From assembly GCA_021811105.1 (NCBI GenBank), contig JAJZPM010000027.1, positions 1 through 47,267 of the forward strand: 47,267 bases of DNA, in the 5' to 3' direction. Made by a program: the position numbers and the translations under genes. This document shows positions 9,714 to 27,163 of this stretch, piece after piece; the stretch's first letter is position 1; each line of letters opens with the position of its first letter. The notes under the pieces are model-generated. The model was not told where the DNA came from and did not search any database. It saw only the letters and a program-made list of their open reading frames with translations. The stretch comes from Nitrospirota bacterium. Its GTDB lineage: Bacteria > Nitrospirota > Thermodesulfovibrionia > Thermodesulfovibrionales > UBA6898.

Positions 9714-11837
9714 CTACACCCTCACCTTCCATCCCGTCCCGTCTTTCCTGTCCTCAAGCAGGATCCCCTTTTCTTCCAGTTCCTTCCGTATCCGGTCAGC
9801 CTCAGCCCAGTCTTTTCTCTCACGCGCAGCCTTGCGTTCGCCGATACGGGCGAGTATGTCGTCTTCTGTAAGCCCGATCTCCTTGACCGCCATCAGTGCC
9901 CTGTACCACTCTTCAGGCGTCCGGTGAAAGAGATTTAGCACATTTCCGGTCTCCCTGAGCATTTCGTCAGCCTTCTTTATCAACTCCACCGCCTTCTTAC
10001 CCGAAGGCCTGCCATCCATATATTTGTTCAGCATGCGCACCAGTTCATAGATGATCCCTATCGCAAGGGCGGTATTAAAATCATCGTCCATCGCTTCCTT
10101 GAATCTATCGAGGAACTTCGCGAGCATTTCATCCAGCGCCTTCTCATCGGGACCCGCCTTTTCCTTCTCGCTCTCCTGTGAAAGAAAATCACGTATCCGA
10201 AGGAGGGTAGTGTAATACCTGTCGATCGAGACCTCCGCCTCCCGCAGCTGTTCATCCGAAAACTCGATCGGACTCCTGTAGTGGGTCGAGAGGAGAAAAA
10301 AACGCACAGCCTCGGCGTCGAACTTGTTCAAAATCTCCTGTATCGTGAAGAAATTGCCGAGGGACTTGGACATCTTCTCCTTGTCGACGGTGATAAACCC
10401 GTTGTGGACCCAGTATTTCACGAAGGGTTTTCCGGTATATGCCTCGGACTGGGCGATCTCGTTTTCGTGGTGCGGGAAGATGAGGTCAGCGCCTCCGCCG
10501 TGGATATCGAAGGTCTCGCCCAGATGTTTTATAGACATGGCAGTGCACTCTATGTGCCAGCCCGGCCTTCCCGGTCCCCAGGGGCTGTCCCATGAGGGCT
10601 CTCCCTCCTTCGACGCCTTCCAGAGGGCGAAGTCCATCGGGTTTCTCTTCCTTTCGTCCACCTCGACGCGCGCGCCCGCCACCATGTCTTCAAGGTCGCG
10701 TTTGGATAGCTTGCCGTACCCGGGAAACTTCCCGACCTCGAAATAAACGCTCCGGTCGACTTCATAGGCATAGCCTTTGTCCACGAGACCCTTCACGATC
10801 CCGATGATCTCCGAGATATGATCCGTCGCCTTCGGCTCCACGTCGGCCCTTCCGACACCGAGGCGGTCCATGTCCTGGTAATACTCGTCCGTATATTTTT
10901 TCGCGACCGCGTTCCAGGAAATACCTTCCTGCTTCGCCCGGTTGATGATCTTGTCGTCGATGTCGGTGAAATTCCGAATATATTTGAACAGATATCCCTT
11001 ATGGATCATGTATCGCCGCATTACGTCGAAGACCACCGCGCTTCTGGCATGCCCGATATGACAGTGGTCGTAGACCGTAACGCCGCAGGCGTACATGCCG
11101 ACCTTCCCCTCCGCAACCGGAATAAATTCTTCCTTTTTGCCGGTAAGGGTATTGTAGATCCTCATCCGTCCTCCTCTTTCTCTTGTCCTTTCGACCGCAT
11201 CGAGACGCTTCGTCAGCTCATCGATCCTCGACTCCAGTTCCTTCTGCTTCTCGACAACCGGATCAGGGAAGTAGTCCATCACCTCGACCATCCCGTCTTC
11301 GGTCGTCATCCTGAGGATCTTCTTCCTCGTGATTCTCCCCGGAACACCGACGCAGATCGAGTTGTCAGGGACCGGTTTTAGGATGACCGAATTGGCACCT
11401 ATAATAACATTATTCCCTATCGTTATCGCGCCGAGTATCTTGGCGCCGGAGCCGACGACCACATTGTTCTTCAGCGTCGGATGGCGTTTCCCCTTCTCCT
11501 TGCCGGTACCGCCGAGGGTGACCCCCTGGTAGAGAAGACAGTTCTCGCCGACCTCGGCCGTCTCGCCGATCACCACGCCCATGCCGTGGTCGATCACCAA
11601 TCCCGGGGCTATCTTCGCGGCGGGGTGGATTTCGATGCCCGTCAGAAAACGCGCAAAGTGCGAGAGAAGCCGCGGAAGGACAGGGATACCGAAGTCCCAG
11701 AGCCTGTGGTTGATCCTGTGCCAGAATATTGCGTGAAAGCCGGGATAGGCGAGGACCACCTCGAGTCCGTTTCTTGCCGCCGGGTCTCTTTCGAATACAG
11801 CCCTGTAATCGCACCTTATGTCGGCCCAAAATCCCAT
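9714..11837 (-). CDS. cysE-cysS: Serine O-acetyltransferase / cysteinyl-tRNA synthetase in one reading frame
   Basis: 707 codons without a stop. Residues 1-180 are a short-form (EpsC-like) serine acetyltransferase with left-handed beta-helix hexapeptides and the catalytic DHGMGVVIGET; it makes O-acetylserine for cysteine synthesis. Residues about 195-224 are a charged coiled coil, where a separate CysE would end. From Met225 (MRIYNTLTGKKEEF) a complete class I CysRS follows: zinc Cys in MYACGVTVYD, HIGH variant CHIGHA, zinc segment [18 protein letters not shown], and a C-terminal helical domain. Met225 (11165) is preceded by AGAGGAGGACGG, a very strong Shine-Dalgarno, so free CysRS is probably also, or mainly, made. 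The pair normally sits as adjacent genes, so this is a lost stop, a real bifunctional fusion, or both. Confidence 0.9.
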   Translation of the reverse strand: MGFWADIRCDYRAVFERDPAARNGLEVVLAYPGFHAIFWHRINHRLWDFGIPVLPRLLSHFARFLTGIEIHPAAKIAPGLVIDHGMGVVIGETAEVGENCLLYQGVTLGGTGKEKGKRHPTLKNNVVVGSGAKILGAITIGNNVIIGANSVILKPVPDNSICVGVPGRITRKKILRMTTEDGMVEVMDYFPDPVVEKQKELESRIDELTKRLDAVERTRERGGRMRIYNTLTGKKEEFIPVAEGKVGMYACGVTVYDHCHIGHARSAVVFDVMRRYMIHKGYLFKYIRNFTDIDDKIINRAKQEGISWNAVAKKYTDEYYQDMDRLGVGRADVEPKATDHISEIIGIVKGLVDKGYAYEVDRSVYFEVGKFPGYGKLSKRDLEDMVAGARVEVDERKRNPMDFALWKASKEGEPSWDSPWGPGRPGWHIECTAMSIKHLGETFDIHGGGADLIFPHHENEIAQSEAYTGKPFVKYWVHNGFITVDKEKMSKSLGNFFTIQEILNKFDAEAVRFFLLSTHYRSPIEFSDEQLREAEVSIDRYYTTLLRIRDFLSQESEKEKAGPDEKALDEMLAKFLDRFKEAMDDDFNTALAIGIIYELVRMLNKYMDGRPSGKKAVELIKKADEMLRETGNVLNLFHRTPEEWYRALMAVKEIGLTEDDILARIGERKAARERKDWAEADRIRKELEEKGILLEDRKDGTGWKVRV
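11163..11177 (-). promoter_or_regulatory. Internal Shine-Dalgarno and ATG for CysRS
   Basis: AGAGGAGGACGG directly followed by ATG (11163-11165) inside the fused frame. The same bases encode RGGR in the fusion protein, yet keep ideal ribosome-binding spacing. Confidence 0.75.
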
Positions 11838-25174: not shown

Positions 25175-25765
25175 TCAGCCAATCCAGACGGTCTTTAAGA
25201 AATCCTTCATCCCCTCTACAATATAGTTTGTCATTCCTCTGTGGCCGACCTTCAGCTCATCCTCAAGCCCATAATGTTTAAGGCACGTCCCGCATGAGTA
25301 TATTTCAACCCCCATAGCCTCGATCTCCTTCAGTATCGGACAGATGTCGGCATTTGTAGTGGTAAGCTTTACGCCGGCATTCAGAAAAAAGATCGTATGG
25401 GGCATCTGCTTGTACGTCTTCACGGTTTCAAAATAGGCTTTCATGAGGATTTTCCCGAGTTCTTCTTCTTTTCCCATCGTATCCGTGCCCACAACAAGAA
25501 GCAGGTCCTTTTCTGTCGCTTGGGCTTTTTGGGCAGCCGTCGCAGGCGCACATGCATAGCCTTTCACTATCTTCACCCGCCACTCATTACCATCTCTGAC
25601 TGTCTCAGAATAGAAAGCATTACTTTTTGCGAACCATTCAAGATTATCTGCCGAGGCCTCATTGTCAACAATGACCTCAGCAATGCCTTCCTTTATTTTC
25701 GAAAGGGCCTCTTCAGCCATCATGACAGGCTTCGGGCAGCCTTGACCTCTTGCGTCGATAACCAT
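25175..25765 (-). CDS. yedF: Selenium-metabolism protein YedF (TusA domain + DsrE-like domain)
   Basis: 196 residues. The N-terminal TusA-like domain has the reactive-cysteine motif GQGCPKPV (Cys10). The C-terminal half is DsrE-like with LLLVVGTDTMG and a YSCGTC motif. This two-domain layout is the sulfurtransferase-like selenium metabolism protein YedF, found in genomes that use selenium and thought to carry persulfide or selenide; its reaction is not proven. AAGGAGATCGTC precedes the ATG. It lies downstream of the Sec-shaped tRNA on the same strand, and a selenium-type LysR gene follows upstream of that. Confidence 0.9.
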   Translation of the reverse strand: MVIDARGQGCPKPVMMAEEALSKIKEGIAEVIVDNEASADNLEWFAKSNAFYSETVRDGNEWRVKIVKGYACAPATAAQKAQATEKDLLLVVGTDTMGKEEELGKILMKAYFETVKTYKQMPHTIFFLNAGVKLTTTNADICPILKEIEAMGVEIYSCGTCLKHYGLEDELKVGHRGMTNYIVEGMKDFLKTVWIG

Positions 25766-25948: not shown

Positions 25949-26043
25949 TGGAGAGGGGCAGTGGGAATCGAACCCACTATAGCCTTTTTCCGGCCATACC
26001 TCTGGTTTTGCAGACCAGGAGGGGCACCAACCCCTTGCCCCCC
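25949..26043 (-). tRNA. Sec-shaped cysteine tRNA (anticodon GCA, U73)
   Basis: A 95-nt tRNA with encoded CCA, the length of E. coli selC. The acceptor pairs over 8 bp (26043-26036 with 25953-25960, one G-U), and the T stem GTGGG/CCCAC is 5 bp, giving a 13-bp stack. The D stem can pair 6 bp (26035-26030 with 26025-26020) around a 4-nt loop TGGT. The long variable arm is TATGGCC/GGCTATA. These are tRNA-Sec traits. The anticodon loop CTGCAAA differs by one base from CTTCAAA of tRNA-Sec, giving GCA (26011-26009), and the discriminator is U73, the CysRS identity base, not G73. So it should be charged with Cys and read UGC/UGU. If A26036 and A26035 stay single as positions 8 and 9, the acceptor is 7 bp with an extra U60-like base. 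It lies between a selenium-type LysR gene and yedF. Confidence 0.88.
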
Positions 26044-26149
26044 ATTCAGGTATAGCCTCCATATCTCATGTCGTTATGAACTATCTCTTTAAAATTGTTT
26101 CAAAGGTTCCCATCGTCATTTCAGGGATACCGTAGTGACCACAAAAAAT

Positions 26150-26178
26150 AGCATAAAGTATCTTAGCCTATAGTTCAA
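26150..26178 (-). promoter_or_regulatory. Candidate promoter for the Sec-shaped tRNA
   Basis: TTGAAC (26173-26178), 17 nt, TATGCT (26150-26155) on the minus strand, about 100 nt before the tRNA. The gap 26044-26275 is AT-rich and holds nothing else I recognise. Confidence 0.4.
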
Positions 26179-26275
26179 ATAGATAATAGCTATCAGTGAG
26201 GTTGTACATATAGGTAGAACGGATTGACTCTCTGCCAGTTTTGAAGGAAGTTGTGCCGCGGAATTGGCCTAAACT

Positions 26276-27163
26276 TTACCCGGCGCTGGGAAGAAGATAT
26301 TCAAGAAAGGCTTTGTAAATGTGCGGAAGTGTTCTCTTCCTGTGGGTTACAATAAAGAATTGCCGTTTCATGTCGGCATTTTTTATCTTGATCTCTCTCA
26401 GTATGTTGCACTCAAGCTCGTCTCGCACTGCGCGACGGGAGATAATCGAGATACCCATCCCTTCCTTCACGGCCTGCTTAATTGCATCGGTAGATCCAAA
26501 CAGTCCGACAATACTGAGCTGCTGCAGATCGATACCTTCCTTGACGAGTATCTTTTCAAACTCCCTCCTTGTGCCTGATCCCTGCTCGCGCATTACCATT
26601 GGAAGCGCTGCAATCTCCCCGAGGCCAAGGCTCCTGTTCTTAGTAAAGGAAGGCGCTGCTATTGCTATCAGCTCATCGTCAAGAAACGGGCTGTAATGCA
26701 CCTGACCGTTATCCAGTTTGGCCCCAACCACCCCGACAAGAAGATCGTGGCCCGCGACCTTATCTATTATCCCCCGCGAGTCTGAAACGATTATTTCGAA
26801 AAAAACGCCGGGATTTTGTTTCCTGTAAGAAGCGGTGAGACCCGGAAGGATATAGGTTGCGGGAATCGTGCTTGCGCCGATGTTGAGATGGCCGGAAAGC
26901 TCATTTCTGAACTCCCCCAAAAGTCCCTGAATGCCCTCAACCTTTTCAATGATCTCGCCGGCACGTCCGATAAGAACACCGGCCTCTTTTGTAGGGATAA
27001 TCTTTCTGCTGAGTCTGTCGAAGAGCCTGCAGTTCAGCTCCTCTTCAAGAGCCTTGATATGGTCGCTCACCGTTGGCTGACTCAGGTGCAGCTCCTCGGA
27101 AGCCTTTGAAAAGCTTCTGTGCTTGAAAACAGATGCAAATACCCTGAGATGGTGTATGTCCAC
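26276..27163 (-). CDS. LysR-family regulator of the selenium-metabolism-associated type
   Basis: 295 residues. The N-terminal winged helix-turn-helix is MDIHHLRVFASVFKHRSFSK then ASEELHLSQPTVSDHIKALE. The effector domain has two alpha/beta lobes (LNIGASTIPATYILPGL; MVMREQGSGTRREFE). The sequence resembles the CysB/CysL-like LysR subgroup found with selD and yedF in anaerobes; the exact subgroup call rests on that likeness and on yedF nearby. The start ATG has only a weak ribosome site. It likely controls the downstream tRNA-yedF unit, itself, or both. Confidence 0.82.
   Translation of the reverse strand: MDIHHLRVFASVFKHRSFSKASEELHLSQPTVSDHIKALEEELNCRLFDRLSRKIIPTKEAGVLIGRAGEIIEKVEGIQGLLGEFRNELSGHLNIGASTIPATYILPGLTASYRKQNPGVFFEIIVSDSRGIIDKVAGHDLLVGVVGAKLDNGQVHYSPFLDDELIAIAAPSFTKNRSLGLGEIAALPMVMREQGSGTRREFEKILVKEGIDLQQLSIVGLFGSTDAIKQAVKEGMGISIISRRAVRDELECNILREIKIKNADMKRQFFIVTHRKRTLPHIYKAFLEYLLPSAG

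Follow-up and report, generated by a model that had tools for sequence, protein, structure and literature searches.

The 95-nt gene on the minus strand at positions 25,949–26,043 of the window (the whole stretch of DNA analysed, 47,267 nucleotides) is a real extra cysteine tRNA shaped like a selenocysteine tRNA. Judged from its sequence, it belongs to the published class selC* tRNA-Cys, also called tRNA-ReC, and is thus of a rare, already described kind. It probably acts as the Cys-for-Sec backup of this class, a tRNA that would be charged by CysRS, delivered by SelB and used to place cysteine at UGA codons.

Anatomy and conservation of the tRNA

The gene was identified by ARAGORN as tRNA-Cys(GCA), and the Rfam family assigned to the same positions, the best of its clan, was tRNA-Sec (RF01852; 62.2 bits vs. 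a gathering score of 47). The minimum-energy fold (−47.6 kcal/mol, z = −3.2), which none of 200 shuffles equalled, has an 8-bp acceptor stem (5′ strand 26,036–26,043, pairing with the 3′ strand 25,953–25,960), a 6-bp D stem (5–6 bp, depending on the pairs counted) with the 4-nt loop UGGU, a 5-bp anticodon stem, a long variable arm of 7 bp with a 7-nt loop (25,978–25,998) and a 5-bp T stem. All these elements lie on the minus strand, as do the GCA anticodon (26,009–26,011) in the loop CUGCAAA, which ARAGORN places at position 33, the T arm GUGGGUUCGAUUCCCAC (25,961–25,977), and the discriminator U73 (25,952), a CysRS determinant that can be read directly from the 3′ end CCCCTC-T-CCA with its encoded CCA. 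The anatomy given in the initial annotation was therefore correct in every detail, as were its GCA anticodon and U73, and the covariance-model check that it called for gave the match to RF01852. Its main point, that Cys identity elements sit on a Sec body of a kind known from a 2017 report, is borne out by the match to the selC* class.

In an alignment of 30 relatives of the window tRNA, pairing was found in 94.8% of the alignment cells vs. 85.3% in shuffles, and 19 of the 30 pairs had changed on both sides, a number reached in none of 500 shuffles. When the partner was slid by 1–3 columns, pairing fell to 50–62%. Both strands of the acceptor stem are backed by this covariation as well as by the fold, and in the variable arm all seven pairs covary; these two elements are variable among the relatives, the T stem being near-invariant. 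Acceptor pair 8 is A-U in 27 sequences, with G-C in two others, and essentially all of the Nitrospirota relatives compared have retained U73. The covariation across the 30 relatives thus supports the tRNA structure.

Two local peculiarities were observed. A genome of the same genus (G003) has at L046:5663-5757 the same tRNA with C for U at position 33 (loop CCGCAAA), and C33 is unusual for a decoding tRNA. In the window tRNA the 5′ leader, GGCUAUACC (26,044–26,057), and the 5′ strand of the variable arm share about 9 bp of complementarity, as they do at L039, L043, L046, L047 and L083, with an apparent compensatory change in L047; such pairing could give the precursor an alternative fold. As a feature of the class it was rejected, since it is strong in six loci (the window's family and near relatives) and not in the other 52.

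Class membership and distribution

The class is reportedly the one described by Mukai et al. in 2017 and said to have been studied by Vargas-Rodriguez et al. in 2018 under the name tRNA-ReC. Its members, found in Firmicutes, Thermodesulfobacteria, Nitrospirae and Proteobacteria, have a Sec-like body with U73 and GCA, and the described body is of the 8/4 type with an A51a bulge, which is dispensable for charging by CysRS*; in some Deltaproteobacteria they are accompanied by selB* and cysS* (PMC7609411). The window tRNA has the Sec-like body with 8-bp acceptor, long D stem and long variable arm, as well as U73 and GCA; it comes, like the class, from a group counted among its anaerobic hosts, the Nitrospirae, and coexists with a true tRNA-Sec and SelB. 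It differs in having a plain 5-bp T stem (8/5) without the A51a bulge, which is the rule in nearly all its relatives too; in having lysR_Se and yedF as neighbours and a shared box upstream; and in that neither selB* nor a linked cysS* was found in the window's genome, although selB* adjoins the tRNA only in some lineages and is not required. We read the bulge-less 8/5 body as a structural subtype, membership being given by the function-bearing identity together with the body.

With tRNA-Sec (selC, RF01852) the window tRNA shares the 8/5 body, the long D stem with UGGU loop and an identical T arm, but it has GCA rather than UCA and U73 rather than G73, a shorter acceptor-to-D linker (three model positions deleted) and a different D arm. 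The GCA tRNA-Sec of the Aeromonas salmonicida type, reportedly from work by Mukai in 2016, likewise carries GCA on a Sec body; it serves for Sec at UGC codons, whereas the window tRNA has a Cys-type discriminator. The allo-tRNAs, another unusual Sec-like family found in the same surveys, have a 12-bp branch (9/3 or 8/4) and Ser identity, unlike the 13 bp (8 + 5) and U73/Cys identity seen here.

Covariance model R1, run on 246 Nitrospirota genomes, scored selC* at 70–106 bits and tRNA-Sec at no more than about 64 bits, so that the two were separated. It found the selC*-type tRNA in 41 of the 92 genomes that belong to the window's class and in none of the 154 other Nitrospirota genomes. SelB was over the cut-off in 38 of the 41 carriers; the other three still have tRNA-Sec, and their missing SelB match probably reflects assembly gaps. 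Ancestry confounds the co-occurrence of SelB with the tRNA in the phylum (Fisher p about 1e-13), which is given no weight in the interpretation; because nearly every Thermodesulfovibrionia genome uses Sec, the co-occurrence within that class is largely phylogenetic. In a pattern scan the named relatives were mostly Nitrospirota, several of them labelled Thermodesulfovibrionales, and relatives with U73 and GCA were also seen in Chloroflexota, Thermoleophilia and a few others; SelB was over the cut-off in 45 of 49 genomes with a long-arm GCA tRNA, including Chloroflexota, and a 46th has a split SelB match. Thermodesulfovibrio sp. N1 is a carrier (L135).

Three genomes have two selC*-type tRNAs each: G015 (C1, C20), G207 (C19, C91) and G043 (C62, C142). 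In G032, G172, G191 and G297, SelA, SelB and selC* were found and tRNA-Sec(UCA) was not detected, which could be an assembly gap or a replacement. GCA tRNA-Sec-like genes with G73 and a Sec-type D arm were seen at L075, L086, L087, L089, L092 and other Burkholderiales/Rubrivivax loci; these are probably tRNA-Sec with a Cys anticodon.

Proposed charging, delivery and decoding

The host genome (3.94 Mb; Nitrospirota, Thermodesulfovibrionales-like) encodes a true tRNA-Sec (UCA, G73; 3′ end CTCCC-G-CCA), an ordinary tRNA-Cys, SelA and a single SelB, so that the second standard tRNA-Cys, selC, selA and selB that the initial annotation proposed to look for were all found. Since an ordinary tRNA-Cys coexists, general Cys decoding does not need the selC*-type tRNA. 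Only one full-length CysRS was found in the genome, the presumed charging enzyme; it is encoded behind a serine O-acetyltransferase (CysE) domain at 9714–11,837 on the minus strand.

This CysE-CysRS fusion is one frame of 707 aa. In most relatives the CysRS frame is similarly long (about 700–760 aa) and in a few it is of normal length (485–490 aa). A second CysRS-like protein of 406 aa (L164:893-2113, G000:C87) is without the anticodon-binding part, is encoded next to a radical-SAM-like gene with no tRNA beside it and was present in roughly one third of the 41 relatives searched. The idea that this short gene (G000:C87:896-2122) is linked to the tRNA was rejected, since no tRNA adjoins it and its occurrence in the relatives does not track that of the tRNA.

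The connection to SelB is seen in the T arm, which agrees with that of the genome's tRNA-Sec in 17 of 17 bases and with that of the ordinary tRNA-Cys in 9 of 17. Exactly the same T arm is present in 29 of 30 tRNA-Sec and 34 of 59 selC* genes of the relatives, and absent from their ordinary tRNA-Cys genes. In addition, the gene immediately after the tRNA encodes a SelB in six Nitrospirota loci (L079, L081, L084, L097, L137 (read as L188) and L161) and in a Herpetosiphon bin (L131). All but one of these proteins, a cut copy, have the full length and thus retain the SECIS-binding part. The six from Nitrospirota group together in a tree, as one clade (100/99) separate from the SelBs resident in those genomes. 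The SelB of the window's genome is of the resident type; a dedicated selB* beside the tRNA, present in related Nitrospirota, is absent from this genome. The finding extends the selC*-selB* pairing beyond the Deltaproteobacteria, at least relative to the review (PMC7609411).

Candidate target codons are present: two formate dehydrogenase (Fdh-alpha) genes of the window's genome contain one in-frame TGA each. In the gene examined closely (NNVDHCARL-TGA-HSATV), the stretch GUGGCC-GGUCU-GGCCAC, 12 nt past the TGA codon, would form a SECIS-like hairpin whose loop is GGUCU. On folding of the 45-nt stretch, several close homologues gave this hairpin, whereas the lowest-energy structure in the window's genome was paired differently.

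From these data we propose that CysRS would recognise U73 and GCA and charge the tRNA with cysteine, and that the 13-bp acceptor/T helix and the Sec-type T arm would favour SelB over EF-Tu, as published chemistry and the identity of the T arm with that of tRNA-Sec suggest. The single SelB of the genome would then take the Cys-tRNA to SECIS-marked UGA codons, e.g., those of the formate dehydrogenases, where GCA would mispair with UGA and cysteine would be inserted in place of selenocysteine. GCA makes no proper pair with UGA, and the evidence for the mispairing was published for another species: the selC* member of Desulfotomaculum nigrificans is reported to be delivered by SelB, not to interact with EF-Tu and to let Sec UGA be read as Cys (2018 study summarised in PMC11415595). 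It is because of this member that the Cys-for-Sec backup is the best reading. The same study makes the earlier statement that the role of the class is not known out of date. The outcome would be a selenium-independent fallback for full-length selenoenzymes.

Among the routes suggested in the initial annotation, channelling of Cys to a SelB-like factor has the best support (the D. nigrificans member, the shared T arm and the selB* linkage), and replacement of Sec at UGC codons is not the leading idea because the published member decodes UGA Sec codons with Cys. For the same reason we consider it unlikely that SelB brings the Cys-tRNA to SECIS-marked UGC/UGU codons and so provides particular Cys residues via the Sec machinery, even though GCA matches these codons exactly, selB* is linked to the tRNA in relatives and the Aeromonas Sec tRNA with GCA is reported to read targeted UGC codons (PMC11415595). 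A search for SECIS-like hairpins after the Cys codons of yedF and of the genes for the split-Soret-like, transglutaminase-like, double-cubane reductase and activase proteins, a weak test, gave no consistent signal. Still less probable is that EF-Tu brings the tRNA, as an extra ordinary Cys isoacceptor, to every UGC/UGU codon: the Cys anticodon and U73 would fit, but a search of 41 genomes turned up a normal tRNA-Cys in 40, the T arm is Sec-type and near-invariant, the neighbours belong to selenium metabolism and a 13-bp helix allows only minimal binding to EF-Tu (PMC11231383).

The long variable arm, and the existence of G73 GCA tRNA-Sec-like genes in Burkholderiales, could speak for charging by SerRS, conversion of Ser to Sec by SelA and insertion of Sec at Cys codons, as with the Aeromonas tRNA. 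This is very improbable, as essentially all Nitrospirota relatives compared keep U73, while the Burkholderiales genes have retained G73 together with a D arm of the Sec type, and as the genome retains its own UCA tRNA-Sec. We also give little credence to a non-decoding tRNA that would be a sensor or Cys donor working with YedF or a regulator of the operon. The gene order lysR_Se-tRNA-yedF and the complementarity of leader and variable arm in the window's family agree with it; the full tRNA anatomy with CCA, the intact anticodon loop, the SelB linkage and the restriction of the leader complementarity to so few loci argue against it.

Gene neighbourhood and a possible selenium switch

In the window, lysR_Se, the tRNA and yedF follow one another on the same strand. 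lysR_Se (26,276–27,163, minus strand) encodes a selenium-metabolism-associated LysR regulator (NF040786, 291 bits vs. a cut-off of 250) and yedF (25,175–25,765, minus strand) a TusA/DsrE-type selenium-metabolism protein (TIGR03527, 193 bits vs. a cut-off of 110). At related loci yedF was found nearby in 26 cases and lysR_Se in 16. Both families are tied to selenium use, and HrsM, an archaeal lysR_Se orthologue, represses selenium-free (Cys-containing) hydrogenases when selenium is available (PMC5322559).

Comparison of relatives revealed a conserved box, TAGCTATTATCTATTTGAACTATAGG (26,167–26,192, minus strand), between lysR_Se and the tRNA, a candidate operator/−35 region of the tRNA-yedF unit and the only match in the genome at up to three mismatches. 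The box occurs once each in G003, G046 and G018; G007 has it at the matching place and one weaker site with three mismatches elsewhere. In both G007 and G018 the box is located farther upstream, between lysR_Se and a gene preceding the tRNA. Its core CTATTTGNNNTATNG (up to two mismatches) was found upstream of the tRNA in 21 of 58 relatives vs. a background of 3.3%, in about a dozen of them 39–41 nt before the tRNA (often exactly 40) and overlapping a TTGAC-like −35. At 0–1 mismatch the core was not found in the examined tRNA-Sec, selA-selB and fdhA regions of the window's genome, and a simple sigma-70 scan upstream of the tRNA on its strand found nothing.

Other recurrent neighbours of the tRNA are a split-Soret cytochrome c-like protein (below the family cut-off) and a double-cubane-cluster anaerobic reductase with activase, at L041-L044, L111, L122, L128, L157 and L163 and at L039, L079, L084, L139, L143, L145 and L149.

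The box may switch the tRNA on or off, and expression of the tRNA would probably track selenium status through lysR_Se acting there, together with yedF. The selenium/thiol link suggested in the initial annotation is supported by gene context only, namely the lysR_Se and yedF neighbours and the upstream box; a sensing role with yedF would be a hypothesis. More tentatively, and with some doubt, we suggest that lysR_Se binds CTATTTGNNNTATNG at the tRNA unit's promoter and, when selenium is scarce, switches Cys-for-Sec recoding on; YedF would act as a partner, and one Nitrospirota clade would add a dedicated SelB paralogue. If true, the lysR_Se-box-tRNA locus would be a regulated switch of codon meaning.

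The class and largely its mechanism are known; new is a member of a bulge-less subtype with a plausible selenium switch, as read from its gene context. The 8/5 subtype suggests that the class can do without the A51a bulge. Very few tRNAs have been shown to carry out programmed Cys-for-Sec decoding through codon-anticodon mispairing, and the literature on selC* tRNAs reviewed here does not say when cells resort to it. A concrete, testable control circuit is offered by the conserved lysR_Se-box-tRNA-yedF arrangement. Natural comparisons are available among the Nitrospirota that use selenium, some of which have the tRNA and others not, and likewise for selB*.
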